Below the pieces are notes generated by a model. That model was not told the DNA's origin, searched no databases, and saw only the letters and a list, made by a program, of their open reading frames with translations. This document shows, piece by piece, positions 890-40,439 of a stretch of DNA of 40,439 nt. Within the stretch, counting starts at the first letter, position 1. Every line of letters begins with the position of its first letter. The DNA lies in contig CAMAUZ010000073.1 in the NCBI GenBank assembly GCA_945861535.1, positions 1 to 40,439 of the forward strand. The letters are read 5' to 3'. Made by a program: the position numbers and the translations under genes. Origin of the DNA: Akkermansia muciniphila (GTDB taxonomy: Bacteria > Verrucomicrobiota > Verrucomicrobiia > Limisphaerales > BJHT01).

Positions 890-1077
890 GATGGCAGCTT
901 CACTGTGAAACCAGCTTGGATGTCTTTGAGCGAATTCGCGTCGAACCCATTATTTTTCAGTTCGTCTAGCGCAACCGCACCCGAGCTGATCGATCCTACT
1001 CCGAAGTGAACGAGCATTCTGGTGGATATTTCGAACGCCGTATTTTGCCGCCCAGAAGCCAAATCTCGCTCTCTCAT
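874..1077 (-). pseudogene. GHKL-type ATPase N-terminal fragment, coupled to sspA
   Basis: The ATG at 1077 overlaps the TGA of sspA in an ATGA arrangement, so this was translated as the next gene of the ssp operon. The 67-residue product has a segment ending in VALDELKNNGFDA, which matches the N-box of GHKL ATPases (E-L-x-x-N-x-x-D-A, as in Hsp90, MutL and histidine kinases): E, N and D are all in register. It is preceded by FEISTRMLVHFG, similar to the start of stand-alone GHKL ATPases found in defence loci. The family needs about 150 further residues (G1, G2 boxes) to bind ATP, but the frame closes at 874 and runs into the LysR-like fragment. It is therefore a truncated relic; the assignment rests on one motif. 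Confidence 0.5.
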
Positions 1078-2222: not shown

Positions 2223-2261
2223 AGCGGCTCAACGTCTTTCGGCGCTTGCTTCGGTGCTCAC

Positions 2262-9262: not shown

Positions 9263-11097
9263 TGTTCTGCAAGGTGGATGGGAAGCCGTTGAATCGTGCC
9301 GGCTCCGTGAACTTCGATCAGATGCAGTGATCGTGAGCCTGCTTTGAGTCGAAGGTCACGGAGGCACCGTTGTTTTAGCGACATAAAGTCGGCGCAAGAC
9401 TCCCGAGAAAAACTCGACGGCATGGCTCCATCAGCCACGCGGCAGAGGAACTCGAAGCGGGGGAGCGTGAGGGGAAAGCGAAATTCCCTACCGTTGGTGC
9501 GAAGCACCGCCTCTGGGACACTGCCGGCTTTTTTACGCAGGATCTCCAGGCCGGGCGGTTCGGAATCCAATTCGAGTTGTGCGAGATGAATGTCACTCAC
9601 CGGCGATGTCGTCAGGTCGAGTCCCGTGGCGAGGTAGACCTCGTTGGCATTCTCCGCGAGCAGCAACCCGGTCCAGATCCGATTCAGCCCCGAGGCAAGC
9701 TTGCGGAGGTGCAGGCGGGCTGGTGATTTTCCTTCCTCAAGCGGCTTGAGAATTTCTTCGAGGTATTCCCGCGCGTGATGGAAGACGGTGATTTTCCACA
9801 GCAGATATTTCTGAAGCTCCGCTTGGGATGCTTGAAGGAAAACTCGGCGTCGCTCAGCCGCTAGCTCAGCCAAAAACAAGGACATTTCTTCTTCGTCGTT
9901 GATGTCGCCGCGGATGTAGCGCTTGAGCAGCGCATCGAAGTCCGGGTTACGCTGGTTGAAGGGATCGGGCAAGACCAGTTCGTCATGCGCCGCCTTGAGG
10001 TCTCCGTCCCTCGTTCCGAAGATGAGGAGTTCATCGAGATCATTGGTCGTTTCATCTCCGACGTGGAGCATGGAAAGGAATCGGTAAACTTCGCGTTTCC
10101 GCCGATTGCTGACGGTGAGGTTTTCTCCGAAAAGAGTCCGATGCAGCGCGGCTTTATGGGCTGTCCCGGACTTCCCGATTGTATTGGCTTCCGTTCCCGG
10201 ACGAATGACTCGGTCTCTGGCGTCGGGGTGTCCTAACAAGGCGTTGGAAAGCAAGCAAAGCACCCCGCGCGTTGGCAAATGATGGCCCGTCACATCCGCA
10301 ATGCGCGCCAGCATGATGAGCTTGGCCCGCACTTCGGGGGTATTGAGCGCACGATAGTTTCTTGAGAGCGACGAAGGCTCCGAGAAGAGAGGCTTGTCGC
10401 TCTCCTCCGTGAAACAGACCCATTCCGAACGGTCGAGAACCGCACCAAGACACAGGCTCATGATCTCTTCGCTTGGGACCATGCTCAGATTGATGAGCCG
10501 GAGGCGCTGGCCGCTGTCTCTCTCTCTGCGTGCGTGAAGGCCAATCAGGGTCTTTTGCAGCCCACGGACGAGCTCGGGTGCATCTGTAGGCAGAGCCCGG
10601 AAGAGTTCATGCATCTGACCGTCGTTGACGGCCAGGACAAAGAACTCGCCGCTCTCACCGAACGCAGACTCCGCCATCCGGGTGAGCAAGCCGACATGCT
10701 CCGGGCTGAGGTGACCGTTGGTCTTTTTCCGCCATGCGGTAACATCATAGATCAAGGTGATCGTGCGCTGTCCTGCCTCAGTTTCGACGGTGACGATTTC
10801 GACCCCGCTGTGTCCTTCGGCGGACTTTCCAGTCAACGCCTGCACCAACTCAAAGCAGAGCGAGGTTTTCCCTTCTCCAGCGGTGCCCGTCAGCACTACG
10901 TTACGAAACAATCCTGTGGAGACGGGAAAACAGTCGAGGATGAGCTGTCGCGCCGGATGATCGAAAGCGAGCTTGGTAACGCCGAGATATGCAGCCAATT
11001 TTCCGACGTGCTCCGCTTGCATAGCCTCGTTGTCGGCCACAGGACCGTAGGCTCGCAGCAGCCGAATCCATTTCTCTCCTTTGGTGAGCGCTGACAT
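9259..11097 (-). CDS. sspF: SspF/DptF-like P-loop ATPase of PT restriction
   Basis: From the ATG at 11097 the protein has 612 residues. A longer frame opens at 11169, but that start would overlap sspD by 59 nt and add a low-complexity leader; the 11097 start leaves a 13-nt gap and gives a conventional opening. Walker A is GTAGEGKT at residues 71-78. A later FFVLAVNDGQ strand is a plausible sensor region, as in DptF proteins, and the next motif-like segment TLIYDVTAWR could be Walker B. SspF and DptF are ATPase subunits of phosphorothioate-dependent restriction complexes. The stop overlaps the sspG start in an ATGA. Assignment is by P-loop, size and operon position. Confidence 0.75.
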   Translation of the reverse strand: MSALTKGEKWIRLLRAYGPVADNEAMQAEHVGKLAAYLGVTKLAFDHPARQLILDCFPVSTGLFRNVVLTGTAGEGKTSLCFELVQALTGKSAEGHSGVEIVTVETEAGQRTITLIYDVTAWRKKTNGHLSPEHVGLLTRMAESAFGESGEFFVLAVNDGQMHELFRALPTDAPELVRGLQKTLIGLHARRERDSGQRLRLINLSMVPSEEIMSLCLGAVLDRSEWVCFTEESDKPLFSEPSSLSRNYRALNTPEVRAKLIMLARIADVTGHHLPTRGVLCLLSNALLGHPDARDRVIRPGTEANTIGKSGTAHKAALHRTLFGENLTVSNRRKREVYRFLSMLHVGDETTNDLDELLIFGTRDGDLKAAHDELVLPDPFNQRNPDFDALLKRYIRGDINDEEEMSLFLAELAAERRRVFLQASQAELQKYLLWKITVFHHAREYLEEILKPLEEGKSPARLHLRKLASGLNRIWTGLLLAENANEVYLATGLDLTTSPVSDIHLAQLELDSEPPGLEILRKKAGSVPEAVLRTNGREFRFPLTLPRFEFLCRVADGAMPSSFSRESCADFMSLKQRCLRDLRLKAGSRSLHLIEVHGAGTIQRLPIHLAEQ

Positions 11098-11110
11098 AGA
11101 TATGCTGGTA

Positions 11111-11962
11111 TCAGAGTTGGCAGAGCAGGCATCCTTCGCGCCGCCGTGGCGCGACTTCGAGACCACCAAGAGTCTGAGCCAGCGAGCGGTTCGGCTGGCG
11201 TTTTGCGAGACGCTCTTGAGTCTTGCGCCAATTCTCCTCGATTTGAGTCATACGATCCGGTTGCTCCAGTTCCGCGAGTGACTCGTCGCCGCACCAATAG
11301 AATACGTTACCATTCACGCGGTTGGGCTTCTCGTAAGCCTTTGCCTCGTCGTAGTAGCCCGGATAACGCTGTTTGAGTCGAACCCATTCGATCTTCTGCT
11401 GGTAAAAGCAGAAGAAGCAGCCGCTTCGGGTGCGCCCCCATTCCGTGTAGGGAGGCATGCCGAGGCCCGAATTTTCAAGGATTCGCTGAACGCCTTCGTA
11501 GTCGATTCCATCTTCTCGAAACGGAAACTCCGCACGGATGTTGGGCTTGTGGCTGATGTAGCCAACGCGTTCTTCATCCGCCCGAATACCCACATAGTTA
11601 ATGCAGTAGTCGTCGCCGATGTAATCCTCAAAGGGCTTCAGCTTCATCATCCTCGTGCACCAACGACGGTGGTTTGATGGGAGCATACCTCCATACTGGC
11701 GAAGCAAATCATCAAAGGTCGTTCCAAAGGTAGTTCGAACAATTTTACACCCGAGGTAGCCTTCCAGTCGCTCCAGATATTCGTAGGTGTCTGGTAGTTC
11801 CTTATCGGTATCATGGAAGATGTATTCCATATTCGGGACGCGATCACGGAGATGCACGGCGAGCGCCGCGCTATCCTTGCCTCCGGAGAGACTTAGGACA
11901 TGACGAACCAAGGTCGGGTCTTCCGGCCATTTATTGTCTCGAACTGGAGCTTGAGTCGTCAT
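11111..11962 (-). CDS. sspD: SspD PAPS-reductase-like sulfur transferase
   Basis: A 283-residue member of the PAPS reductase / ATP-pyrophosphatase (PP-loop) family. The nucleotide-binding loop SGGKDS is at residues 26-31, right after the first strand. Cysteines C102 (RRWCTRMMK), C182 and C185 (SGCFFC) and the C-terminal pair C278 and C281 (GCLLCQL) are candidates for an iron-sulfur cluster or persulfide relay. At 283 residues it is much shorter than DndC (about 500), which favours SspD. In single-strand PT modification SspD is thought to activate the DNA phosphate with ATP and accept sulfur from SspA. The ATG lies 3 nt from the sspC stop, so translation is probably coupled. Confidence 0.85.
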   Translation of the reverse strand: MTTQAPVRDNKWPEDPTLVRHVLSLSGGKDSAALAVHLRDRVPNMEYIFHDTDKELPDTYEYLERLEGYLGCKIVRTTFGTTFDDLLRQYGGMLPSNHRRWCTRMMKLKPFEDYIGDDYCINYVGIRADEERVGYISHKPNIRAEFPFREDGIDYEGVQRILENSGLGMPPYTEWGRTRSGCFFCFYQQKIEWVRLKQRYPGYYDEAKAYEKPNRVNGNVFYWCGDESLAELEQPDRMTQIEENWRKTQERLAKRQPNRSLAQTLGGLEVAPRRREGCLLCQL

Positions 11963-11965
11963 GGA

Positions 11966-14900
11966 TCAGGGCTTCTTGGATTTCTCCTCTGCGTTGAGCT
12001 GTGTCCAGATCGCGCGCATGGCAGCGGCCAGACCGTGGCGCCCGTGCGTAGAGAGGATCTGTTGGATTTCGGTTTCGACCGGGCGAATACGGCTTTCATC
12101 CATTCCGTTCCAATCAACGAGGTCACCGACCTCGCTCCCGTCACTCTTGGTAATAGCGATGCGGCAGGCGTGGCCGTTGAGCTTCCTCGTCGTGCCGATG
12201 AAAGTCATCTCGGTGCGCTTGAAGCGAGCGGCAGCGATTTCGAGTTGGTGGTGGAACTCCGTCTCGTCGTTGTCCAGCCATCGCTCGGGCGATTTGCGTG
12301 CGAGTAGGTTCGCGACGGATTCCACCCACGCGCGATCATCGAGCGCGACGTCAGCAAGCCGCAGGGCGAATGCTTTGAGGGCGGGTTCGGTCACGGCAAC
12401 GGCGAGTTGGGCCGCGCGGTCAGCGATGATGCTTCTCCCCGCAGGCGTTTTCGCCGCAACATCGAAAGCAGCGCAAATCGCATTTTGCAGGCGCTCGATG
12501 AGCTTCGGGTAAGCCGTCCGAATTTCGTGCAGCGCTGTGCGCAAACGGGCGGCCAGTTCGTCCGGTGTCTTGAGTCCATCTTTTCCGATGGGTGGAAGGC
12601 CACACGCTTCGGGCAACGTGGTGAAGACAAGTTTCACAGGCTCGCGGCCGTCGAGAAGCGCTCGCCGGACAGCCACGGCAGCAGCCGGAAGGTGGTTCGT
12701 CCTGCGGCAGTATTCAGGAACCTCCTGGCTGATGAAGACGGCCAACGGGCGCACGAGATCAATCAGGTCCGTCTTGCTCGCATCCCGTGGGTCGATTTTC
12801 AGCAAGTGCAAAAGCTTGGTGAAAACATCAGCGCGGACGCCGCTCAGCTCGCAGTATTGGATGTAAAAGAACTCAGGTTCCTTCGTGATCCGCAGGAACA
12901 CGTCGCCGCCGACCTCGTGAAGATAAGTTCCGTCCTCGTAGAGCGCGACACGCTGGTGGTGCGTCGCAAGATAGATGGCGAGGATGAACGGCTGGAGTCC
13001 TTCCCGGACTCCGAAGGGTGGCAGTGAGAGTGCTCGGAGCACCTCCGGGACTGGAACCAACGCGTCGGTGCCTTTGGCCTTCAGCGTCTCCGTGATGAGA
13101 GCGAGCGATGGGAGCAAATTGCACTGGTCCTTTTCCGGAGTCGGGACTCGAAACATCCAGCCGGACTCGCCCTCTACATGGAATCCGCCACCCTTTAGGA
13201 TCGAGAGATAGAGCGCCATCTCGGCCGGCCGCTTCGTGTCGTCCATGCCCAAGTGCGGTTTGTCAGACGCCGTTGCCATTGCTTCCGCCAATTTTGTTCT
13301 AGCCCCAACCGCAGCGCTGCTTGGTGAACGGCGGTTGATGAGTTCGTTCAGAACCTTCGGTGTATCAGAGTAGATTCGACGGCACTCGCCTCCAAGAAAT
13401 GTGAGCAGTTCTCGGCCTGTGGCCAATCTGCTTGGACTCGTGGACCCACGGTAAAACCATTCGATGTGCTTCCCGGTGGGGATGGCAAGATTGTCCAATC
13501 CGACGAGCCGGATTCGGAGGTTCCGTCTGGCCTGATTGATCTGGCGAGAGACTTCCTCACGGGCATACCGATCACCCGAGAGCTGCGGTGTATTTCTCAT
13601 CACCCATTCCCACGCAACCAAGTCGGTGAGTGCAGTCACAGCAGGGTCGGGCGGTTCGGCGACGGCCACGAAAAGCCCTTTGGCGAGGTTGGTTTTCCGT
13701 TCGTGTAATGTCTGTCTCGCGATGCGCTGCTGTGCTCGGTCAGCCGGCAGGATGACTCGCAGGTTCAAATCTGCGCCTTCGCCATCGAGTTGGGGTTGGT
13801 TGGCGAGAAGATCATTCAGGCCGGTGGCTGGAATGAGTTTCACCGCGGCATACCGCAGAGTCCCGGTGCGCGCGTAAAATGCGCGCGGGACAAGATGCTC
13901 GGAGCGGACGTGATCGCAGAGGCGCTTGATGCCGTCGCCTTTGCCGGACGTTGCTTCAACGGCCTTGGCGAAAAGCTCATCTAGGTTCACGGATGTGTGC
14001 GGCCAGAGGCACAATCCTTTCACGGTGCCGCGTTCGTAAATCACGCCGCGGGATCGCAGCGTCTTGATCGCGTCATCGACAGCTTTCCTCGCACCACCGA
14101 CTGACGCGCTCACGATCTCCTCCGTGGCCGGGAGGTCAGGCGCGTCCAAGAGACTGAGCATCGCCACGGTCTTGAGGACGGCTTCCTCTTCCGGCGTTTC
14201 GACCTCGGTGGAGGCCAGGACGGCTTCGATAACACCCCAGTGGGTGTGCGAGTGCCCGGTCGTAATGGTCGGCAGTAGATTCAACCGGACATAATCGAAG
14301 AGGTGATGAATTCGATAGTGCCCGGCGCTCTCGGCAGGTTGCGCAGCGTGCTGCTGAAGCGCCATCGGTTCAGACGACGAGACGAAGCTGAACAGCGACC
14401 GCTCGTTCTGGCCGAACTTGCGCATCGTGCGGACGAGCACCGGCAGTGTTGTCGGATGAAGCGGAAAGATTTTCGGCCCGAGGCCAGCGAGCGATACGGG
14501 GGCAGACGGCCCGTAGATCCCGGTCTTGAGCGCGTTCGTCATCGCTGCGCTCGACTCCCTTTGCAGCGCGTCGGGCAGTCGGTGTGTTTCGACATTGAGC
14601 GTCGCGGCGACCAAAGCAGCGACCTGCTCGATCGGTTGCGCGTAAACTATTTCCTCGAAGCGCCCCGCGATTTTGTCCCACTCACGTCTTGCTGCCGAAT
14701 CCAACCCTGCGGCGTATGCGGCAACGCCTTGATGAAGCGTGGCGACGATCACGAAGGCCTTTTCTCCGCTGCGCGCGGCTTCTTCGGCGAGTCGCTGAAG
14801 AAGGAAAACGTCTTCGAATTCAGGGTTGCGCGCGGCGTATTCCAAATTCTTGCCAAGCTCATCAAGGATGAGAAGTAGTCCCGCATGTCGGTGACGTTTT

Positions 14901-15337
14901 GCGATGGCAACGCATTCCCGGACTGCTTGCAGCACCTCTTCGGTGTCTGGCCGACCGCGACGACCGTCCCATTTCAATCCCAACGCGCGAAGGACCGTCA
15001 CGCCGAGTGGCTCGTTGTCTCCCGTCGCCAATACTGCTCCAAAAGTTGTCTGACCAACGAAACGGCGGAGATCATTTGGAAGCTCGTCCTTGGAGCCTTC
15101 CGCGATGCGAGCCAACGCCAGGGCAAAATCAGTTTTCCCCGAACCATAGTCGCCGGCGATGCGCCAGGCTCTTTGAGTGGAGTTCGCCCGAAAACCTGTC
15201 GTGATTCGTTCGAGTGCTTGCTGTGCGACAGGAGTGAGAATGTATCCCAGCGAAGAGTTCGGATCCTTGATGTCGTGCTCAAGATGAACCGACCGCATGA
15301 AGCGCGGGTGGACTCGGAGCAGTGAGGAAATTTGCAT
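11966..15337 (-). CDS. sspC: SspC P-loop ATPase of PT modification
   Basis: An 1123-residue AAA-type ATPase. The opening resembles BrxC/PglY-like phage-defence ATPases. Walker A is GDYGSGKT at 62-69 and Walker B is LLLILDE at 154-160. The rest is long helical sequence with several winged-helix-like stretches that I cannot name confidently. It lies between the DUF4007 gene (33-nt gap) and the PAPS-reductase-like gene (3-nt gap), which is the sspB-sspC-sspD order of the single-strand phosphorothioation system, where SspC supplies ATPase activity to the modification complex. The start ATG at 15337 is followed at once by a credible N-terminus. Alternative reading as a BREX BrxC is disfavoured because no other BREX gene is present. 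Confidence 0.82.
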   Translation of the reverse strand: MQISSLLRVHPRFMRSVHLEHDIKDPNSSLGYILTPVAQQALERITTGFRANSTQRAWRIAGDYGSGKTDFALALARIAEGSKDELPNDLRRFVGQTTFGAVLATGDNEPLGVTVLRALGLKWDGRRGRPDTEEVLQAVRECVAIAKRHRHAGLLLILDELGKNLEYAARNPEFEDVFLLQRLAEEAARSGEKAFVIVATLHQGVAAYAAGLDSAARREWDKIAGRFEEIVYAQPIEQVAALVAATLNVETHRLPDALQRESSAAMTNALKTGIYGPSAPVSLAGLGPKIFPLHPTTLPVLVRTMRKFGQNERSLFSFVSSSEPMALQQHAAQPAESAGHYRIHHLFDYVRLNLLPTITTGHSHTHWGVIEAVLASTEVETPEEEAVLKTVAMLSLLDAPDLPATEEIVSASVGGARKAVDDAIKTLRSRGVIYERGTVKGLCLWPHTSVNLDELFAKAVEATSGKGDGIKRLCDHVRSEHLVPRAFYARTGTLRYAAVKLIPATGLNDLLANQPQLDGEGADLNLRVILPADRAQQRIARQTLHERKTNLAKGLFVAVAEPPDPAVTALTDLVAWEWVMRNTPQLSGDRYAREEVSRQINQARRNLRIRLVGLDNLAIPTGKHIEWFYRGSTSPSRLATGRELLTFLGGECRRIYSDTPKVLNELINRRSPSSAAVGARTKLAEAMATASDKPHLGMDDTKRPAEMALYLSILKGGGFHVEGESGWMFRVPTPEKDQCNLLPSLALITETLKAKGTDALVPVPEVLRALSLPPFGVREGLQPFILAIYLATHHQRVALYEDGTYLHEVGGDVFLRITKEPEFFYIQYCELSGVRADVFTKLLHLLKIDPRDASKTDLIDLVRPLAVFISQEVPEYCRRTNHLPAAAVAVRRALLDGREPVKLVFTTLPEACGLPPIGKDGLKTPDELAARLRTALHEIRTAYPKLIERLQNAICAAFDVAAKTPAGRSIIADRAAQLAVAVTEPALKAFALRLADVALDDRAWVESVANLLARKSPERWLDNDETEFHHQLEIAAARFKRTEMTFIGTTRKLNGHACRIAITKSDGSEVGDLVDWNGMDESRIRPVETEIQQILSTHGRHGLAAAMRAIWTQLNAEEKSKKP

Positions 15338-15370
15338 GTTGGTCGGGGCGGGGAGCGGAGAGTTTATCGG

Positions 15371-16357
15371 CTAAAGGAATCGCGGTTTTTCATAAGCGGC
15401 ACGCAGATCATCGTGGCCGTTGCTTTTCCGAAGGCGGCGGAGCTGACGCAAGTTCGCCGACTCGGCGATTTGGAAACCATTCGACTGCACCCGCGTGAGG
15501 TCGGACACCCGCTCGAGAATCTCGCTTTCTGCCATTCTGAGGATGCGACCGGGACTGTGATTGCCCGCAACCAACTCCCGCAAGGCAACGGTCTGCTCGG
15601 AAGGAAAAGCCCGGTTCCACCAATCGTGGATGAAGAACGCGAAGAGTTGCTGCGGGATGGCGGTCTTCGGACCAGTGTCGAACGCGTAGAGCGTTTCCCA
15701 TTTTCCGGCCGCATTTTGCCGTTCACCCGCTTCGTGAATCAGACCTAGAACGGACAAGGCGCAGTCGAGATGATCTTCTCCTCGCGTCCCACGCGGGGGG
15801 CGGTAGCTGTGAAGAAAGACTTCCCAATGCTGTTTGAGCGTGACGATCGAAGCGGTCCTTTGATTCTGCTCCGACTCCTTTCGGAACGCCTCGACCACGG
15901 CGCTGGCGCTGAATTCTGCGGTCGGCCAGCGGTTGAAGAGGCATTCCCAAGCGAAGAACGGTGCTTGCGTGTTCCTGCTAATGAGCCAGTGGAGCAGCCA
16001 ATTGCTCGAATGATCTTCGAGGAACGGATCGAGACCGGTTGTGGGCGCGAAAACCAATTCGCCGACAGCACTCAACGACCACCCGGAGTCTTCTTTCGAG
16101 GCAATCTGAAAAGCCTCAATCCAACACCGCAGCGCCTCGACCATGTTCTTGCCGAGGCCGAGCGAGACGATGCCCTCATCAATGTTTGTGAGCGGATCCT
16201 GTCCGTCGGTGATGGCGCCGACCGCCTTGGGAATCCAAGCGACACGCAGCGGAAAGGTTTGGTGGCCTGAAAAACGAAAGCCCGGCGAAACAGCGCGCTC
16301 GGTCGAGGACGCTTGGTTTTCCAGATCTCGAATCGCTGTGTTTGCGACAACCTTCAT
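15371..16357 (-). CDS. sspB: SspB, DUF4007 protein of PT modification
   Basis: The signature FRFSGHQTFPLR, followed about 40 residues later by LGLGKNMVEALRCW, is characteristic of DUF4007, the family of SspB. SspB nicks DNA as the first step of single-strand phosphorothioation. From the ATG at 16357 the protein has 328 residues and the SGHQTFPLR motif falls at residues 30-38. The frame stays open up to 16582, with other ATGs at 16390 and further up, but that leader is Pro/Gly/Arg-rich and looks non-coding; no strong Shine-Dalgarno sequence decides between 16357 and 16390. It is the first gene of the ssp operon and is followed after 33 nt by sspC. Confidence 0.82.
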   Translation of the reverse strand: MKVVANTAIRDLENQASSTERAVSPGFRFSGHQTFPLRVAWIPKAVGAITDGQDPLTNIDEGIVSLGLGKNMVEALRCWIEAFQIASKEDSGWSLSAVGELVFAPTTGLDPFLEDHSSNWLLHWLISRNTQAPFFAWECLFNRWPTAEFSASAVVEAFRKESEQNQRTASIVTLKQHWEVFLHSYRPPRGTRGEDHLDCALSVLGLIHEAGERQNAAGKWETLYAFDTGPKTAIPQQLFAFFIHDWWNRAFPSEQTVALRELVAGNHSPGRILRMAESEILERVSDLTRVQSNGFQIAESANLRQLRRLRKSNGHDDLRAAYEKPRFL

Positions 16358-17117
16358 TCGCCAGGGCGTTTTCGGTTTCTCATTGTGCATGCTTTCAAAG
16401 CCCAACGGCAGAGTGCCGCCCTCATGGGGAGGCAGCAAGGCATGTTTTTTTAGATGTCCAAATCTTTGGCGTTGAACGCGGTTCGCCCCGCTCATCTGCA
16501 CGCTCATCAGAGAATCAAAACCATTCGGTGCATGGGCTTTTCGTCGTTCCATGGCCGCCAAACCATCATGGGTGTGGGTCATCTATTGGGTCCGCCTCAC
16601 ATTCCTTCAACGTCCTTCGTCCTCGAACCTCCGCTTCTGCCCTCAACGGCGCCAAACCCCGCTTCTAGGCCATATTCGCCGGATTCATTCACCTTTTTCT
16701 GACTCCCTCTCAACCGCTTTTTATCAATCCAGGCGCTCCCGACAACTCCCAACGACAGGGAGCGTTTCTTTGCTCGGCTTCCCGTGTGGCATCAAGTCAA
16801 CAAATCGTCCTGGAAGCTGTCCCGGCCCCATTTCGAGTTCCGGCGGCCCGAAGAGTCCGATGCAGACGACCCCTGCCGGCTTCACCTGCCAGAAAACAAC
16901 CTTCGTCCGGTCCGGGACTTCGCAGGGACGTACATTGAGGCCCAGCGGGAACCGTCCGTGACCAGCTTCATCCACGACTCCAGAAACAACACGGCGGCGG
17001 AAGCCTCACGCGCAATGCAGATCAGCTGGCAGGGGGCCGCAAAATCGTCCTTGGCGCGATTATCATCCCAAAAAGAAATCGGGCGTTTTATCGACCACCA
17101 AACACAAAACCTGCAAG
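16358..17117. other. Leader region between integrase gene and ssp operon
   Basis: About 760 bases separate the end of the integrase gene from the chosen sspB start. The ssp operon promoter must lie here, but I see no convincing -35/-10 pair. A minus-strand frame of 83 codons (16724-16975) has fairly ordinary composition, and its middle (KVVFWQVKPAGVVCIG) looks protein-like; I do not recognise it and cannot call it a gene. Confidence 0.4.
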
Positions 17118-18764
17118 CTATCGGCTCGGATCCTTGCCAAGGTCGACCCACTCGCCATTACGCACTTTGTACGCATAAGTCCTTGGGTAAGAGTTGCTCT
17201 TCTTGAACTCGACGGAAATTTTTTCACCGGCCTTGAAATGGATCGTCGCCTTCATCTTCGGAATATCGATTCCGATGCTGTCGATATGGCTCCGCAGTGC
17301 TTCACGCAAGGCTATCACTTCATTTTCGTTTTGAGCCGCGACATGCCTCAAGAATTCCAGCTTGCCGTTTACCATTTTGACCGACACCGGAATAACCTCC
17401 AACGGGAGCTTTCCGGCACCGTTGATCTCCGACTCCACCCTCGCCTTGACCTCCTTCCAATCAGCCCGGTGATCAATCAATAATCTGCTGTCCTTGGCAG
17501 CCTCCAACTTGCCAACCAAATCCTTCTTCTCCGCTTCCATCTGCTGCAAGATTCTTGTGCCCGCCTCAGAAGGAGTCGCCATGAACAGCTTGGCCGCCGT
17601 GGCCAGTTTTTCCTCCAGTTCGCCTACTCTCCCATTTAGGGCTTGGATTTCTTGGTGCGCTTGTCGCGCTGATTGATCATCAAGCCTCGAGGTCGTTGGC
17701 CCAGCCGATGCGATTACCCGGAGCAACGCCTGCTCGGTTCCATAAATCGACATCGTCGTCGGCTCGCAAATTTTCAAATGCGACCCGTGACACTGAAAGT
17801 AATGGTACCCGTTTCCCACGCACCTCACGATGCTTTCGCCGCAAAGATCGCATTTCAAAAGGTGACTCAGTGGATGCGGGTTGTTGTTCCTTTGACCCTT
17901 GTAGACGTATCGAGTTTTGATTATCGCCTGGACAGCGTAAAAGTCAGACTCCGCGACAATTGCCGGAAAGAAGCCCGGCACTTCAGGGGTGGTCCCAGTG
18001 TAAAATCCGATGACCTCCTTGGATTTAAGAATCCGTTGAATGTAGGTCGGATGCCATAATCGTTTTCCGCTCTTGCTTTTGGCGATGTTGGCGACCTTTT
18101 CCTTGATGAGAATCTGCGCTATCGACTGCGTCCCAAATCCTTCGATGTAGAGCTTGAAGATTCGACTTATCACCTCGGCTTTTGAAGGCGTGGCAAAGTA
18201 TTTTTGGTTCTTGGATTCAAGCCACGAAGGCAGCCTGATGTTGATGTGTTTGCCCTCCGCGGCAAGTTTGTTCCGATTGATCCACGACTCTTTAACACGG
18301 TAGCTCTTGACTTTGCTTTCCTCATGGGCGCGGCTCATCACCATGATCGAGACGATCAACTCGAACGGATTTGCTGCAAGCGTCTCCTTGCTGTAGCGCC
18401 GCTCATTGTCAGAAAGCGCCACAATCTCAATGCCTTGATTGATCAGGTTGAGCAACAACAACTGGGCGGACACAATGTCCTCGCGGCTCAACCGATCCAA
18501 GTTCTCCACGATCAAAACCGTGCCTTTGGGAATTTTGCCCTCCGCCACCTGCTTTTCCAACTGTCCCAATGCTCCAGTAGCAGTACGGTGAACGCCCTTG
18601 AAGGCCGATTTGCCGAGGTCTCGAAGGCGGTAATCGCTTGTGAGGGTCAGGCCATTTCTCTTGCAATACGCTTCCGTCGCCTCCGTTTGACGGCGTATGG
18701 AATCGCCACCGAGCTGTTCCATGGTGCTGAACCGGACGTAACTGATCGCCAATCTTTGCTTCAT
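17118..18764 (-). CDS. Large serine recombinase (integrase)
   Basis: From the ATG at 18764 the protein has 548 residues. The N-terminal resolvase domain opens with ISYVRFSTMEQ, giving the nucleophile S13, and continues with DSIRRQ, the ENLDRLSR motif and a QGIEIVAL strand. A recombinase domain follows (about 170-290). A zinc ribbon is marked by CDLC and FQC...C (about residues 305-345), then a coiled coil (about 375-440), the usual layout of large serine integrases. The frame extends upstream to 18812 across the presumed attachment site, but the MKQRLAISY start is typical. The gene sits right at the break in yraN, so it very probably integrated this island. No recombination directionality factor is visible in the window. 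Confidence 0.92.
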   Translation of the reverse strand: MKQRLAISYVRFSTMEQLGGDSIRRQTEATEAYCKRNGLTLTSDYRLRDLGKSAFKGVHRTATGALGQLEKQVAEGKIPKGTVLIVENLDRLSREDIVSAQLLLLNLINQGIEIVALSDNERRYSKETLAANPFELIVSIMVMSRAHEESKVKSYRVKESWINRNKLAAEGKHINIRLPSWLESKNQKYFATPSKAEVISRIFKLYIEGFGTQSIAQILIKEKVANIAKSKSGKRLWHPTYIQRILKSKEVIGFYTGTTPEVPGFFPAIVAESDFYAVQAIIKTRYVYKGQRNNNPHPLSHLLKCDLCGESIVRCVGNGYHYFQCHGSHLKICEPTTMSIYGTEQALLRVIASAGPTTSRLDDQSARQAHQEIQALNGRVGELEEKLATAAKLFMATPSEAGTRILQQMEAEKKDLVGKLEAAKDSRLLIDHRADWKEVKARVESEINGAGKLPLEVIPVSVKMVNGKLEFLRHVAAQNENEVIALREALRSHIDSIGIDIPKMKATIHFKAGEKISVEFKKSNSYPRTYAYKVRNGEWVDLGKDPSR

Positions 18765-18791
18765 TTGTAAGGGAAAAACTATCACGGATAA

Positions 18792-18811
18792 TGTTTCGTG
18801 TAAATGAAACA
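18792..18811. other. Probable attachment half-site of the island
   Basis: The sequence TGTTTC-GTGTAAAT-GAAACA is a perfect 6-bp inverted repeat around an 8-bp centre. It covers the exact point where yraN loses homology (after codon 66) and lies 28 bp from the integrase start. Serine integrase sites are imperfect palindromes next to the integrase gene, so this is the likely right-hand att hybrid. The crossover base pair is not determined. Confidence 0.6.
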
Positions 18812-19005
18812 AACACGAGGCAGTCCGCGTCGCGAAACACCAGGTCGATCTCGCCGCGGGTCGAGCGGTAGTTGGCCACGAGGAACTTGAGGCCGGCCTG
18901 TTCCAGATGCCGCCGCGCCGCCGTTTCGCCCAGCGCGCCGCGGCGCAGGTGCTCCGGCAGTTCCTTGCCCCGCCAGCGTTCGATGAGCCAGTCCAGCCAG
19001 CGCAT
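18808..19005 (-). pseudogene. yraN: yraN (UPF0102) 5' fragment, cut by island integration
   Basis: The first 66 codons encode the N-terminal half of a YraN/UPF0102 protein, an endonuclease-like fold of uncertain role. The family motifs GALGETAARRHLEQAG, NYRSTRGEIDLV and DADCLVFV are all present. The next residues should be E-V-K (with the catalytic E and K), but the sequence turns to SFTRNIIRD and the conserved half is absent. The frame then reads on into integrase DNA for about 126 meaningless codons to 18427. The start lies 6 nt after the rnhB stop, so yraN was cotranscribed with rnhB. The missing 3' half should be at the other end of the island, outside this window. Confidence 0.85.
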
Positions 19006-34974: not shown

Positions 34975-35658
34975 TTAGGCGGATTGAACCTGTCGGTTCA
35001 AGCACAGTGGACCACGCGACCAATGCTCGCCAATTACTTGAATGAACTCAGGGCGCACGAGCTTCGCCCGCTGGGTTAACCACTCGTCATCCTCGCTTCG
35101 CAGATACAGTCCCTCGACTGGGCCATCCCCATAGACCGACTCCCGAGAGAGCATCGCCCGCAATTCGCCCATCGTGAAAAATCCTCGTGCCACTTCGCGC
35201 ACGGGCTTTACTTCCGTCGCCGCGAACAACACATCACGCCGACGGGTGCTCCAGAAACGATCATTCGCATCAAGCACATCGAAGCCAAGGAACCAATCCG
35301 GCAGCCGCGTGTAAGCTATGCTGTGTTGCGCGTAGCACCACTCACCATAGAGCACCGCGCCCTTCGGAAGCTGCTCGCGCAGCCCAGTCTCGTGTCGTGC
35401 AATCCAGCCACGCAGACCTTCCCACTGTCCCCGCAACGGGCCTTCCAGAAAGTTCCCGCGATTCTGTGCTCGCAGCCGCCCGGTTTCATCGAACGAGATC
35501 CCAAGATTTGAGCCGTCAACCTTCTCTTCAACGACTAGCCGTCCGCTCGCGAGGAACGCCTCCGCCTCTGCTGGTGTCATCACTTTGTCGTCCCGCGCGG
35601 GCTGTGGGGAGAACCAGAAAAGATGGGGAGTCTTGGGGAATTTGCGGAGCATGTCCAC
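34975..35658 (-). CDS. RNA ligase family nucleotidyltransferase
   Basis: A 227-residue protein with all the covalent nucleotidyltransferase motifs: motif I EEKVDGSN with K46 as the AMP-accepting lysine, an R67 in QNRGNF (Ia), YGE with E106 (III), FLGFDVLD (IIIa, F126), PVEGLYLR with E182 (IV) and RAKLVRP with K199 (V). It also has the KFPKTPHL start of the RNA ligase family related to Rnl2-like enzymes. It should seal RNA ends with ATP. The start is GTG 35658 or ATG 35652; both leave a gap of only 4-10 nt after the PIN-like gene, so it is the third gene of the ATPase-PIN operon. The protein is short, with no separate C-terminal domain. Confidence 0.85.
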   Translation of the reverse strand: MDMLRKFPKTPHLFWFSPQPARDDKVMTPAEAEAFLASGRLVVEEKVDGSNLGISFDETGRLRAQNRGNFLEGPLRGQWEGLRGWIARHETGLREQLPKGAVLYGEWCYAQHSIAYTRLPDWFLGFDVLDANDRFWSTRRRDVLFAATEVKPVREVARGFFTMGELRAMLSRESVYGDGPVEGLYLRSEDDEWLTQRAKLVRPEFIQVIGEHWSRGPLCLNRQVQSA

Positions 35659-35662
35659 GGGG

Positions 35663-36169
35663 TCAGTCCTTCAACTCGTCCGGGCAAAGGTGCATCACCG
35701 GCACTCCGTTCGCCGCCAGCGCGGCTTCGTCATGTTTCCAATCGCTGTCGGTCGCATTCAAGATGGTCGCGGGGCCAAGCATCGCGGCACACCCCACGGC
35801 AACCGCCACGTATTTGCGATCGGAACGGTCAAACTTTGTCAGCGCCACATCCCGCGGAAACTCCTCGAAATCGAGCGCATCTGCCGCCGTCGGCGTAATC
35901 GGCACCCGCTCGCAGCGTTCCGGCTGCCACTCGTTATCGTGAAGCCACTTCACAAATTCATCACCCACGCCCGGTTCCCCCGCGAGTCGTAGGTGCCTCA
36001 TGTATTCGTCGAAGATTCTTGCTCCATCATCCACCGCTACCCGTCCGTGCTCCATGATCGCTTGCAGCGTCTCGATGCACTCCAGTTCGCATTCCGCGCA
36101 CACGTCGGCCACGCCATTGGCGGCGATGCCCACGTTCACATCCACGATGCAAATCTTCGGTAGCTTCAC
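35663..36169 (-). CDS. PIN-like nuclease, partner of the ABC ATPase
   Basis: A 168-residue protein with the PIN-domain layout: KICIVDVNV with D10 at the end of the first strand, E40 in the helix region, D117 in FDRSDRKYVAVA and D141/D143 in ILNATDSDW, which together make the acidic metal site of RNases in toxin-antitoxin and defence systems. No other domain is present. Its ATG overlaps the stop of the AAA ATPase gene (ATGA), and the RNA ligase gene starts 4 nt after its stop. The pairing with an ATPase resembles ATPase-effector defence modules in which the ATPase controls an RNase. Fold assignment is from motifs only. Confidence 0.65.
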   Translation of the reverse strand: MKLPKICIVDVNVGIAANGVADVCAECELECIETLQAIMEHGRVAVDDGARIFDEYMRHLRLAGEPGVGDEFVKWLHDNEWQPERCERVPITPTAADALDFEEFPRDVALTKFDRSDRKYVAVAVGCAAMLGPATILNATDSDWKHDEAALAANGVPVMHLCPDELKD

Positions 36170-37614
36170 GCTTTGGCTCCCTGTGCACCCTTCGTGGCCG
36201 CCATCTCTTGTTTAAGCCCAGCCTTCCGCGTCTCTGCGATGTCCGTCATCTGGTCGCCAAAGAAGTTCTTCGGCCAGTGCTTGATGCGACCGCACTTGTC
36301 TACTTGGAGCGCGCGGATGCCTGATCCATTTCCATCATCCGGTGACTCGCAGAAATAGACCGCCACATCCTCCGGCTTGAGTTCCTGCTCGGCTACGCGT
36401 CGCTGGAGCCGGCGAAGGAAATGCTCCGAATGACTCTCAATTAAGAACTGCACCTTCCGTTCGGCACCGCCCTCCTTCGTGCCAATGGCCTCGATGAACA
36501 AGTCTGCCAACTCCGATTGCACAGCGGGGTGCAGGTGCAGCTCCGGTTGCTCGATGATGATTGTCGAGTTGGGTGGCGCATAGAACGCCTGCGTCACCAC
36601 GGGCAGCACTTGCGAAACGCCAAAACCGACACCGGGCAGAGTTACCGGCTTCTTCCGCCCCGGCATGGTGAGCAGCGTTTGATACGTGTGTGTGCTCTTT
36701 GACGCACACTCAACCGTGAAATTATCTGCGACACCGAGTTTCACCAACCATCGCGCCACGACCTGTTGAAGCGGCGCGTAACGGGTCTTACCGCCGACAT
36801 TGAACGTCCTTTCTGCGCCGGCGAGCAGGGCAGCCACCGTGTTCTCGCCTTGGAAGCCAACGTCGCTCGGTGCCTGTCCGGCCCATGTGTAGGACGGCTT
36901 CGGATACTGCCGTAGCGGACCGAGATAATGGATGCTCTTGAGCACGCGCTCGAGTTCAAGTTGCAGACCCGCGAATCCGGCAACGTTCTGGAAATACGAA
37001 TACAGTTCCTCGGGGAAGCCGTAGAACCGAGCTGGGGTTGGCAGTGGCCACGCACGACCAGGACTATGCTTTTCCTTATACTCGGAAGTGACGAGGCGGT
37101 ATTTTTCGCCACCGTTCGTTCGTTCCAACCCAACACGCATCTCCGGCATCGTTTCGCTCCTTGGCGCGCTTGCGCGCGAGCTTATCCGGGCCCGCCCCTC
37201 CGGCAGGATGTAGCTGAACGCCTTGCACACTACGCGTTCGGAATCGGCCAACTGCCCGACCTTCCCATTAAATTTCATCTGTGACCAGCGGTGACGCCGA
37301 CTGTGCAGCGGATCGATCAATTGCTTCGATCCTTCGCACTTCCATTCGATCTCGAAATCTACGTCGCGGCCCGTCTCCCCGTCGAAAACGTACGAACCGA
37401 AACTCCCAAGGTGCATAATGCTCTGATCATCCGCCGTGTAGAAGACCATGCTCCGATCCGGCTGTTCCACCGTCCGCCGCAGCATCAGCAGGAACTGCCC
37501 GATGCTTGATTTGCCGGAGCTGTTGCCGCCAAAGAAAACCGTGATCGGCGCGAGGCGAAGTGGCGTGGTATCCTGCCACGTCTTGAAGTTCTGGATGCGA
37601 AGCTGAGTGAGCAT
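36166..37614 (-). CDS. ABC/OLD-type AAA ATPase (AAA21/DUF3696-like)
   Basis: A 482-residue SMC-like ATPase. Walker A GGNSSGKS (29-36) follows the standard N-terminus LTQLRIQNFKTW. A long insert (about 60-270) separates it from an ABC-signature-like stretch GVGFGVSQVLPVV, then Walker B and D-loop STIIIEQPELHLHPAVQSEL, and the H-loop region FLIESHSEHFLRRL. This is the OLD/AAA15/AAA21 group common in anti-phage modules. There is no TOPRIM domain, so the effector is probably the coupled PIN-like protein. It would be the sensor and gate for that nuclease. First gene of a three-gene operon. Confidence 0.82.
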   Translation of the reverse strand: MLTQLRIQNFKTWQDTTPLRLAPITVFFGGNSSGKSSIGQFLLMLRRTVEQPDRSMVFYTADDQSIMHLGSFGSYVFDGETGRDVDFEIEWKCEGSKQLIDPLHSRRHRWSQMKFNGKVGQLADSERVVCKAFSYILPEGRARISSRASAPRSETMPEMRVGLERTNGGEKYRLVTSEYKEKHSPGRAWPLPTPARFYGFPEELYSYFQNVAGFAGLQLELERVLKSIHYLGPLRQYPKPSYTWAGQAPSDVGFQGENTVAALLAGAERTFNVGGKTRYAPLQQVVARWLVKLGVADNFTVECASKSTHTYQTLLTMPGRKKPVTLPGVGFGVSQVLPVVTQAFYAPPNSTIIIEQPELHLHPAVQSELADLFIEAIGTKEGGAERKVQFLIESHSEHFLRRLQRRVAEQELKPEDVAVYFCESPDDGNGSGIRALQVDKCGRIKHWPKNFFGDQMTDIAETRKAGLKQEMAATKGAQGAKA

Positions 37615-37726: not shown

Positions 37727-38353
37727 TCATGGTTTTGTCGGCATCACGTCGGGATATGGCCCGAGGAAGCGCTCCCCGTTGAAGTGGATCATGTGGTCGG
37801 GGTCTTCGGCGATCCAGACCTCGGATTCCCATGCGATGTGATTGCCGAATGACAGCATCGTTCGTCGGTTCTCGAAGGCGGTGACGAACACGAGGCCCGC
37901 TTTGCAGCCGGCGAACAGGTCCTTGAGTTCTTTGCGGCGTTTGCCGTCCACCGGGCCGGCGCTGGTGACTGCTTCGATGAGCAGGAGCCAGTTCTTGGCG
38001 CGGTGGTGGACGATGACATCGGGAATCTTTGCGGCGGAATCCAAGGTGACGCCGAGCGCGGCCAAGCCTGCGCTCTCCAAGTGGACGAACTTGTTTTCGG
38101 TGTCGCCGATGTAGAGGACCACGCCGCCGGGGGCGAAGGCGGGGCAGAAGTGTTCAATGACGGCCTTGATGAGCAGGCACCAGCGGTAACGGGGATGGTA
38201 GAAGAAAGTTCCGTCAGGCATCTGCCATCGCTGAGCCTCCACTTCCCGTCGCGGGATGCGCAGCGAACGGGCAAGTCTATCGACACCCACCGACGAAGGG
38301 TGGCAGTGCGTGTCAGTCGTTTGGTGCTGTCTTGTCCGGCGCATGTATCCCAT
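37727..38353 (-). pseudogene. BsuBI/PstI-type restriction endonuclease, N-terminal domain missing
   Basis: The 208-residue product covers the catalytic C-terminal domain of the BsuBI/PstI family: VVLYIGDTENKF, LGVTLDSAAKIPDVIV, NWLLLIEAVTSAGPVDGKRRKELK and IAWESEVWIA, then HMIHFNGERFLGPYP. The usual family length is about 310-330 residues; the N-terminal helical domain is absent. An in-frame stop TAA lies 6 bases before the ATG, so it cannot be longer. It may be a free-standing nuclease domain or a dead gene. Its start is 22 bp from the divergent XRE gene, in the middle of what was probably a methyltransferase-endonuclease pair. Confidence 0.8.
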
Positions 38354-38371
38354 TTTGGGTTATCCTAAAAT
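38352..38371. promoter_or_regulatory. Dyad in the endonuclease/XRE intergenic region
   Basis: ATTTTGGG-TTAT-CCTAAAAT is an 8-bp dyad with one mismatch, lying 4 bp before the first XRE ATG and covering the endonuclease start. It fits an operator bound by the XRE protein, as controller boxes in restriction-modification systems, but could be only a promoter-region palindrome. Confidence 0.5.
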
Positions 38372-38389
38372 CGGATGGACTCTTGGCAA

Positions 38390-38656
38390 GTGTCAAAGTC
38401 CATCTTCACAACTGAGTATGCGGTTTTCCGAGACCTTCTGCGGGAACTCCGCACCGAGAAGGGCCTCACCCAAGTTCAATTGTCCGAGACGCTGGGAATG
38501 CCCCAGAGTTTCGTGAGCAAGTATGAAACGGGAGAGCGAAGGCTCGACGTGATTGAACTCCGTGAGGTCTGTAAATCCTTGGGTGCTACGCTCGCTGCGT
38601 TCGCGAAGAAGTTGGAAACGCGACTCGCTGAGTCGAAAAAGGGAGGTGCAGCGTGA
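38390..38656 (+). CDS. XRE-family transcriptional regulator
   Basis: A small DNA-binding protein with a helix-turn-helix in LRTEKGLTQVQLSETLGMPQSFVSKYETGERRLDVIEL, a typical Xre/Cro-type domain. The GTG at 38390 gives an 88-residue product starting MSKSIFTTEYAVFRDLL, which is the usual opening for this subgroup; an ATG at 38375 would add five residues and start only 4 bp from the dyad. The gene overlaps the next by 4 nt (GTGA). It may act as the controller of its own operon and of the divergent endonuclease gene. Confidence 0.85.
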   Translation: MSKSIFTTEYAVFRDLLRELRTEKGLTQVQLSETLGMPQSFVSKYETGERRLDVIELREVCKSLGATLAAFAKKLETRLAESKKGGAA

Positions 38657-39102
38657 CGAACTTGGACTCAGGGAGCGCCACTGCGGGGAAGGCCGCATTG
38701 CTGTTGGCTGCGAAGGGACTGGGTTACATGGTCCCAACGGCGAAGCAGAAGAAGAACCTCGTCGTGGCCTTTGCGAAGCGGGACATGATTGTCTATGGGA
38801 AGGCCTTTGATGTGGTCCGCCTTTCTGCACCTGTGAACTTGGATTCATTGGAGGAAGTTGAAGCCAACCTGAGCAAGGTTTTGGTGTGCGAAATCAAGTC
38901 CACCAAGAAGGACGTGGCTGCGGATTTCCGCGGCTATTTCTTTGGGTTGACGGCTGCCGAGGTGCTTGTGGCGCAAAGTCTCAAAGCGCAGTTCCGCTTC
39001 ATCTTCGTGAACACAGTTTCGGGAGCGCACTTGGAACTGCAATTGAACGAGATTTTCGCGAAGGCACGCGGGATTTACCCGACGTGGAGCATTTCGTTTT
39101 GA
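38653..39102 (+). CDS. Small PD-(D/E)xK-like protein coupled to the XRE gene
   Basis: A 149-residue protein starting at GTG 38653, overlapping the XRE stop in GTGA. It contains AFDVVRL followed about 30 residues later by LVCEIKST (E-x-K), the pattern of PD-(D/E)xK nucleases, then FRGYFFGLTAAEVLVAQSL and RFIFVNTVSG, a plausible strand-helix finish. I do not recognise a named family. It lies antisense to the region that would have been the methyltransferase C-terminus and is probably a nuclease or a regulator with a nuclease fold. No signal peptide. Confidence 0.6.
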   Translation: MTNLDSGSATAGKAALLLAAKGLGYMVPTAKQKKNLVVAFAKRDMIVYGKAFDVVRLSAPVNLDSLEEVEANLSKVLVCEIKSTKKDVAADFRGYFFGLTAAEVLVAQSLKAQFRFIFVNTVSGAHLELQLNEIFAKARGIYPTWSISF

Positions 39103-39114
39103 TGCGGACCGTGC

Positions 39115-40305
39115 TGCCGTGAGGCGGCGGCGCTCTTCCTTCGACGTGAAGCGTTTCGTGAGCAGATACACGCCGGAGGGCACGAGCCACGTGCGCGTCT
39201 CGGCGTTGTCGAGGATGGCGTTGGGTTTCCGGGCTTCGAGCTTGGGCCAGTGGATGGTGCCGCCGTTGAAGTGGCAGGGATAGAGCAGCGGCACCGTGCC
39301 GCGTTCAGGCTCCTTCCGCAGCGCGTCCTTGAGGCGGAAGTCCACGACGCGCCCCGTCGAGACAGTCACGCCCAGCGAGGCGAGGCTGGAACTAAGTCCG
39401 TCCATGGTTGCCTTGGCCGTGGCGTGGCTGGCCGTGGAGGGGATGTGGATGAACTTCTCGGCGTCGTGCCGGTGGACGATTTCCGCGAAGGGAAAAATGG
39501 TCTCGGTGATGTCGTCGCCATGCTCTCCGCTGCTGCTGGAGATGGTGAGTTCGTGGGGTTGGTTCCGACCCTTCACCGCGTGGAAGATGATGTTTTCCTG
39601 CAGCACACTGTCATCGCGGAAGGCGGCTTGGCGGGATTCAAAAACGTGAAGGCGGCGTAACTCCAGATGACTCAGAAAGTCTTCACGGAACGGGCGGAAA
39701 TAAGGGCCGTTGCAAAAGCTCCGTGGCGTGATGCCGACGAGTTGGCCTCCGGGAACCAACAGTCGCTGAATGAGCGCGATGAAGCCGGTGTAGAGGTTGC
39801 TGGTTTCGACGCCGACGGACCGCAACGCGCGTCGCTCGGCGGAGTCGGTGCTGATTTTGCGATACGGCGGATTCACAATGGCGGCATCGAACGCGGGCGG
39901 CAGCGTGCCGAACAAATCCCCCGCGAGACGCACCGACATTTCCTGGATGAAGTCGGCGGAAAGAATGGTGAACGTGAAGCGAATGCCCGCGCCGGCGCAG
40001 AGCTGTTGGCACTCGCGCATCGTCTCGGCCAGCGCGTCCAGGATTTCGCCGTCGAGTTCGTAGAGGGTCGACTCGATGGCGCGAACCCCCTCGCGCTTTT
40101 CACAACACCGGGAGACGAAAGCCGCGGTGAGTGAGCCCGCGCCCGCACCCGCATCCAGCAAGCGCACCGTTCGCGGGAGCGCCCCAAACATCGACGCCAT
40201 GAAGTCAGCCACCGGCGTTGCGGTAAGGAACTGTCCAAGTTCCTCCTGGCGACTTCTGGGGTTTTCTATGGCCGCTAGTGTATTGTCTCTCAAAACTATA
40301 CTCAT
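39115..40305 (-). pseudogene. BsuBI-type adenine-N6 methyltransferase, C-terminus replaced
   Basis: The reading frame begins at 40305. Residues 24-36 (GQFLTATPVADFM) are motif X, 50-57 (LDAGAGAG) motif I and 145-148 (NPPY) motif IV, typical of adenine N6 methyltransferases paired with BsuBI/PstI endonucleases. Homology runs to about residue 397 (KRFTSKEERRRLTAA). After that the frame continues antisense through the XRE-nuclease module to 38845 (total 486 codons) with an Arg/Leu-rich non-homologous tail. The normal last ~100 residues, including the target-recognition part, are missing, so activity is doubtful. Start overlaps the stop of the transposase upstream (ATGA). Confidence 0.75.
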
Positions 40306-40439
40306 AATTCTTTCGGCGCGGAATTTGCGGCGGCCCGCGCCCGCTGAATCTTGGCCAGGATTTCCTCCCCCGCGGCTTTCCAGACGTAGCGCTTGGGGCG
40401 GAGATTGCGTTCCCGCAGGTAGCCTTCCATCTCGGCCAC
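40302..40439 (-). mobile_element. IS630-like transposase, C-terminal end
   Basis: The last 45 residues of a transposase enter from the right edge, ending in a segment with YLRERNLRPKRYVWKAAGEEILAKIQRARAA. This is the characteristic C-terminus of IS630-family DDE transposases (P-K-x-Y/F-x-W-x-A, then E-x-I-L-x-K). The stop overlaps the ATG of the methyltransferase. The rest of the element, and any inverted repeat or TA duplication, is outside the window. Confidence 0.75.

Follow-up and report, generated by a model that had tools for sequence, protein, structure and literature searches.

A possible XRE-controlled nuclease cassette built within BsuBI/PstI-type restriction-modification loci

The stretch analysed here, which we call the window, is the complete 40,439-nucleotide contig C73 (CAMAUZ010000073.1, Akkermansia muciniphila) of a 7.9-Mb genome. 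Towards its right-hand end it carries two parts of a BsuBI/PstI-type restriction-modification (R-M) locus, both on the minus strand: R-cat, a 205-amino-acid (aa) endonuclease catalytic domain (37727–38344), and M, an N6-adenine methyltransferase corresponding to residues ~4–390 of ~494 (39115–40275). Between them and on the opposite strand, as the first-pass annotation had described, lie genes for an XRE-type regulator (XRE, 38387–38656) and a PD-(D/E)xK-like protein (NUC, 38653–39102, 149 aa). An operator-like inverted repeat, GTATCCCATTTTGGGTTAT (38345–38363), separates R-cat from XRE.

Restriction remnants and the XRE-NUC pair

R-cat is supported by its match to the BsuBI/PstI catalytic domain (PF06616, E 1.9e-53), by alignment with SdaI and with intact endonucleases (R) and by its ratio of nonsynonymous to synonymous substitution rates (dN/dS). 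The match covers only profile positions 150–315 of 317, only residues 165–322 of the SdaI structure 2ixs align, and full-length R proteins pair with it from residue 168 (L076, 330 aa) or 200 (L103, 346 aa). The motif PD..IEAVTS is retained in the window. What is missing, as had been noticed from the window alone, is the N-terminal domain, which in SdaI serves DNA recognition. The open reading frame (ORF) has an ATG at 38353 and, also as previously noted, an in-frame stop, three codons ahead of that ATG; comparison of loci places the likely start at 38344.

When aligned with intact R, the first ~58 residues of R-cat are unlike the canonical N-terminal domain. The first-pass annotation held that a 0.75-kb segment had replaced the M-R junction; a replacement is indeed seen, and its size is nearer 0.9 kb (~38171/38222 to 39114) because these first ~58 codons are unaligned as well. 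The new N-terminus had no Pfam match in the window copy and one chance-level match (E 0.014) in the L016 copy, and tblastn gave no convincing match outside the type-A loci defined below among the loci compared; with full R as query, tblastn extends with gaps into it in L075. A structural model that is poor overall (predicted local distance difference test, pLDDT, 52.9) shows helix-turn-helix (HTH)-like secondary structure in this segment (pLDDT 72–81). Foldseek returned SdaI for the model; VIA rows were uninformative.

M lies in a minus-strand ORF from 40305 to 38845. Its stretch 40275–39115 aligns with residues 4–390 of the 494-residue M of L076 (85.8% identity), and full M proteins (493/494 aa) are matched over these same residues. 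The C-terminal ~100 residues are gone and the PADLOC profile match stops at 396/494, bearing out the earlier estimate that homology ends near residue 397, so R-cat has no full-length M beside it. Below 39115 no homology to the full M of L076 was found; comparison of loci shows the remainder of the frame (38845–39114, minus strand) as a poorly conserved run-on antisense to NUC. Among five type-A loci this tail is identical at 45–69 of 85 positions, and NUC in those loci is 91–98% identical to the window copy. At its other end M runs into a repeat (40276–40439) whose copies elsewhere in the genome point to an insertion sequence (IS)-like boundary with a TA junction: the part shared by seven compared copies starts at the TA of 40276–40277. 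The ATG at 40305 comes from the repeat, which has taken the place of the first ~3 codons of M; of the 18 other occurrences of this repeat in the genome, 13 are demonstrably at contig ends.

XRE belongs to HTH_3 (PF01381, E 3.7e-13) and is under purifying selection, as set out below. Comparison with L016 and L075 favours the GTG at 38387 as its start; an in-frame ATG at 38375 is also present. NUC lies on the same strand and overlaps the XRE gene by 4 bp. An inverted repeat close to ATATCCCAATTTGGGTTAT precedes XRE in every one of the 13 complete XRE-NUC pairs that we collected. A pattern derived from these same loci matches 39 of 104 fetched loci, all of them overlapping fetches of the 13 pairs, and none of the other 65; it has no match in 100 shuffles of the window, and the 18-bp spelling found here occurs once in the 7.9-Mb genome with up to two mismatches allowed. 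A promoter scan returned a single weak minus-strand match, which overlaps the site.

NUC is probably a PD-(D/E)xK nuclease, as predicted from its motif and its model (pLDDT 79.7) and in keeping with its low dN/dS. The motif FD...E[I/V]KST, with the conserved acidic and ExK residues of that class, is invariant in 13/13 XRE-NUC loci. Nucleases occupy all of the first ten VIA rows (SPARDA, Hjc, D212 and I-Ssp6803I, the last at Z 5.5), and we take them to belong to the PD-(D/E)xK class. The libraries searched gave no match to NUC above a curated cut-off and no usable NCBIfam or PHROG match (the L078 copy scored 18.9 bits against NOV_C, cut-off 22.1); neither a convincing sequence relative in the PDB nor a match among phage records was found. 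Remote relatives adjoin a methyltransferase (MTase) and a DEAD helicase on an Agrobacterium vitis plasmid, an MTase and a candidate restriction endonuclease in two Sphingomonas, and DrmB/DrmC-like genes in Mesorhizobium. Four are on viral contigs; L052 and L054 have defence-type AAA-ATPase genes nearby. On the viral contig of L051, a NUC relative (4857–5426) has an N-terminus with an MTase-like FDLLIGNPPF, possibly a fused methylase remnant.

Related loci, selection and possible exchange

A scan of the GTDB-species collection with the NUC alignment gave seven loci, four of which (L013–L016) have the window's order and orientation with M or M remnants. Relatives supplied further composites, L075 (genome G348) and the four diverged loci L077, L099, L100 and L101, so the search for the pair inside other R-M loci that the first-pass annotation had proposed yielded nine composites besides the window's own: five of type A (L013–L016 and L075, with the window as the sixth member) and four of type B (L077, L099–L101). 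R-cat, XRE and NUC keep the same order and orientation in all ten. Together with L098, L078 and L102, which have no divergent R-cat, these make up the 13 XRE-NUC pairs. Duplicates were removed before counting (L081 is the L013 locus, L097 the L015 locus), and the set leaves aside L103 (a NUC fragment), NUC genes with no visible XRE neighbour (L079, L010, L051) and remote relatives (L011, L012, L017–L019, L052–L054). NUC matches occur in 13/320 genomes of the order (in G698 a fragment, in G447 a remote copy), in 5/384 of the class (profile A3) and in 2/387 of a phylum sample. R matches occur in 32/337 phylum genomes, including that of the window.

In the intact relatives L021–L023, L076 and L103, M and R overlap with nothing between them (in L021–L023, M is visible only as far as the fetched loci reach). 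The intact pair of L076 (genome G382) is 86% identical to the window in both M and R-cat. Within ~1.5 kb on either side, 29 of 30 fetched R loci had no XRE or NUC match, the exception being the window's own L020. L098 carries operator, XRE and NUC with no BsuBI-type M or R relative in the 8 kb covered. The NUC gene of L102 faces a convergent BsuBI-type R; homology of this R ends at residue ~280 (profile) or ~302 (tblastn) of 343, which leaves 17–79 bp to the stop codon of NUC. The convergent neighbour of NUC in L078 is apparently a truncated phospholipase D (PLD)-type endonuclease, and an MTase fragment is found further upstream. The DNA common to L098 and L102 runs from the NUC stop codon across XRE and extends past it. 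Intact relatives on one side and XRE-NUC without divergent R-cat on the other make the pair look like a capturing module, as had been proposed. It had also been held that relatives with these same gene lengths would mark the arrangement as the normal one. L013 has nearly the same lengths (R 204, XRE 93, NUC 149, M ORF 479 aa), which indicates that the arrangement is stable in the lineage; it is nonetheless derived.

Some neighbouring features were noted in passing. A C-terminal NUC fragment in L103 (4065–4289) lies just upstream of the intact M-R operon, as if the module had been lost or swapped. Two more small conserved genes, one excisionase-like HTH by eye, stand upstream of XRE-NUC in L098 (3311–4088) and L102 (2942–3507). 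In L014, a reverse transcriptase of defence type UG19 (3461–5521) adjoins the R-cat end of the composite, and an N6_Mtase (PF02384) gene (8092–8961) ends just upstream of its M; L015 has a similar short end by eye. G611, of the same genus, shows no more than part of the start of M, close to the end of a contig.

The position of the parts is closely repeated. The R-cat start lies 1 bp from the core of the operator-like site in 6/6 type-A loci and 13–15 bp from the site in 4/4 type-B loci, an internal ATG being assumed in L101, where the longer ORF would run across the site. The match of M to its profile stops ~12 bp or less from the stop codon of NUC, at position 396 in the window and at 455 in both L099 and L100. 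The check for target repeats at the junctions that had been proposed gave none: no 9-bp word, direct or inverted, is common to 38101–38400 and 39081–39180.

R-cat, XRE and NUC are open in 10/10 composites, the one blemish being the loss of the terminal R residues of L015 through a frame change. Across ten pairs of five type-A loci, dN/dS was 0.019–0.042 for NUC, 0.063–0.219 for XRE and 0.092–0.232 for R, and within R 0.040–0.184 for the catalytic part and 0.158–0.461 for the new N-terminus. Between the window and L075 the values were 0.058, 0.120 and 0.127 for NUC, XRE and R. All three genes are under purifying selection, with dN/dS well below 1 wherever it could be computed. Simple disruption or silencing is therefore rejected for R, XRE and NUC, and of the two options offered at first, that the module silenced the locus or that it now uses the remaining endonuclease domain, the second is favoured as the likelier. 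A recent single insertion is also rejected because pairwise dS within type A is 0.27–2.5.

M has fared differently. It is open in the window (with its repeat-derived start), L013, L099 and L100; frameshifted in L014, internally deleted in L015 and cut at ~residue 319 in L101; mostly deleted in L016, absent in L075 and a remnant in L077. A functional cognate methylase is thus missing in the 6/10 composites in which M is broken or absent.

A tree of XRE plus NUC groups L078 with type A and separates them from a group of type B, L098 and L102 (96/93); in trees built from the R-cat and M pieces, composites and intact relatives were not resolved from each other. The differing M junctions and the separation of A from B suggest that capture happened repeatedly. 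Between L099 and L100, the module is near (NUC 144/154 identical, dS 0.61; XRE 74/89, dS 0.79) and the flanks are far (R 135/192, dS 2.8; M 273/462, saturated); DNA identity rises in a step at the operator and falls in another at the stop codon of NUC. From this one locus pair, exchange of the module is suggested.

Proposed module capture and its alternatives

We give about an even chance to the reading in which an operator-XRE-NUC module captured R-cat and runs an XRE-controlled, methylase-independent nuclease cassette. We infer that a module of ~0.76 kb, bounded by its own inverted repeat and the stop codon of NUC, integrated into BsuBI/PstI-type R-M loci of this order, probably more than once. 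Integration would have removed the 3' end of M and the N-terminal domain of the endonuclease, and would have given the remaining catalytic domain a new start codon immediately next to the operator. In the resulting divergent cassette, with R-cat on one side of the operator and XRE-NUC on the other, XRE (C-protein- or antitoxin-like) would most likely repress both arms. R-cat and NUC, two PD-(D/E)xK-type proteins presumed to act as nucleases and to cooperate, would most likely be kept in check while the cell grows normally and set free by a trigger such as infection, making a putative regulated defence or addiction nuclease for which methylation is no longer needed. M would be a legacy gene, long constrained and repeatedly lost. 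With no recognition domain and M often gone, R-cat is unlikely to act as a free restriction enzyme with its former specificity, and either repression or a partnership with NUC probably keeps it safe.

A wider proposal is possible and more doubtful: that these modules form an undescribed mobile class of operator, regulator and nuclease that preys on R-M loci, inserting at the M/R junction, discarding target recognition and placing the catalytic domain under its own operator, so that independent captures would each yield a methylase-free, repressor-controlled two-nuclease effector. Among the literature matches listed, no paper concerns such a module, a statement that extends to those matches only; the available part of PMC4081073 mentions neither SdaI nor BsuBI.

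Several results weigh against capture as we have described it. The truncated M has dN/dS 0.07–0.12 within type A and was therefore functional for some time after capture, which leaves room for a methylase-dependent life where M is open. The M frameshift of L014 may be an assembly error, and all composites come from draft assemblies. The R-cat motif is altered in two of the ten (P to T in L015, E to Q in L101), and a 167-aa R-cat-only gene without the N-terminal domain overlaps a type II M of another family in L028 (1441–1944); L031, considered as a second such case, was rejected as a frameshifted full R. In type B the end of M homology is uncertain by up to ~90 bp because tblastn runs on to 2237 in L099 and 1604 in L100. 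Holding A and B together was rejected at p-AU (approximately unbiased test) 0.036 in a test set up post hoc after the tree, and on that footing one common capture is disfavoured. L100 and L101 show no identity step, and L077 against L100 is near in R (162/191) and XRE (72/89) and far in NUC (117/158), which places a break inside the module. As to NUC, the Foldseek list is headed by RecU, the SPARDA nuclease and similar proteins with weak scores and includes unrelated folds; the best E values are weak (0.05 in the PDB, 0.03 among viral models), the best Z of 6.7 is under the tool's caution level of 8, and the NUC relatives L010/L050 and L079 have no restriction neighbour in view.

The locus might instead be a C-protein-controlled variant of a type II R-M system, in which XRE is the controller, R-cat, NUC or both the endonuclease and the truncated M still protective. 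A small XRE gene does precede and overlap the gene of a probable nuclease, and a conserved inverted repeat lies ahead of the pair; M is open in 4/10 composites and constrained, and the R-cat-only gene of L028 sits beside an M of another family. Against this, 6/10 composites have a broken M or none and yet keep R-cat and NUC open, M is short of ~100 (window) or ~39 (L099, L100) C-terminal profile positions, and XRE-NUC also occurs alone (L098). We regard this alternative as unlikely.

Two overlapping genes with the regulator first, their own operator-like site and stand-alone copies would equally suit a plain toxin-antitoxin pair that landed in a decaying R-M locus with R-cat as a passenger. 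A passenger is hard to square with an R-cat that is open in 10/10, has type-A dN/dS of 0.09–0.23 and always starts beside the operator, or with the strong constraint on NUC (0.02–0.07), and we think this explanation rather unlikely.

XRE-NUC could also be a selfish element of a homing-like kind, its nuclease being directed at restriction genes and causing both insertion and exchange by cutting module-free alleles. It would fit the discordant divergence of module and flanks in L099/L100, the closeness of the NUC stop codon to the truncated ends of restriction genes that converge on it (the BsuBI-type R of L102, apparently the PLD-type gene of L078, and M in types A and B) and the homing enzyme I-Ssp6803I among the NUC fold matches. 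Homing normally leaves the target gene working, with insertion and no loss of target, whereas ~0.8 kb of M-R was lost here and no target repeat was found; since selection on R-cat is left unexplained as well, we consider homing improbable. Chance decay in a defence island with no functional cassette, suggested by the decay of M and by the repeat with an IS-like end that cuts M in the window, is most improbable given ten loci of the same order, constrained proteins and the operator-like site in 13/13 pairs.

As a rule, a restriction enzyme is tolerated only when its methylase accompanies it. In the present loci, purifying selection maintains the catalytic half of such an enzyme, beside the operator-like site of a foreign regulator, in relatives that have lost M or carry a broken copy. 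If the capture of R-cat by an operator-XRE-NUC module is borne out, it would describe a natural route from a restriction system to a regulated effector, and the ten composites, the three pairs without divergent R-cat and the intact relatives would offer a testable model of defence-gene recombination.

Neighbourhood and comparison with known systems

Other candidate defence genes share the contig. By eye, 1074–16582 holds a phosphorothioation-type (Dnd/Dpt) defence cluster, with genes for a cysteine desulfurase, an FtsK-like ATPase, a phosphoadenosine phosphosulfate (PAPS)-reductase-like protein, an ATPase and a DUF4007-like protein, and 17118–18812 a large serine recombinase. The candidate defence pair HEC-03A/HEC-03B (35663–37614) directly adjoins R-cat, and an RNA ligase gene (34975–35658) comes next after that pair.

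With the type IIP R-M systems BsuBI, PstI and SdaI the locus shares an R catalytic domain of PF06616 and an N6-adenine M of the same families. Unlike in those systems, R lacks the N-terminal domain, M lacks its C-terminal part and is often lost, and XRE-NUC separates the two. Without that domain, a full M or adjacency of M and R, the locus is outside the BsuBI/PstI type as defined. Type II toxin-antitoxin systems with an XRE antitoxin likewise have two overlapping genes with the regulator first and an operator-like site, and the stand-alone copy of XRE-NUC fits them as well; they differ in that the present locus has a second nuclease arm and that NUC has no match at curated cut-offs. Small PD-(D/E)xK proteins (the Hjc and RecU resolvases, the SPARDA nuclease, I-Ssp6803I, NOV_C) have the D...ExK motif in common with NUC and, at weak scores, the predicted fold.

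C-protein R-M operons such as that of Kpn2I (PMC6237814) resemble the locus in their small XRE-type gene before a nuclease gene and in the conserved inverted repeat upstream; here too a small XRE gene stands in an operon ahead of a nuclease gene, as NUC is predicted to be. The C-box described for those operons is one for two dimers, compared with the single palindrome seen here, and the present locus adds a divergent second nuclease domain and an M that is broken or absent in 6/10. It is not a strict C-controlled R-M system, since M is dispensable. By analogy, the locus is predicted to work like an operon of the C-protein or toxin-antitoxin kind in which the regulator precedes the nuclease, with a captured second nuclease arm in addition.

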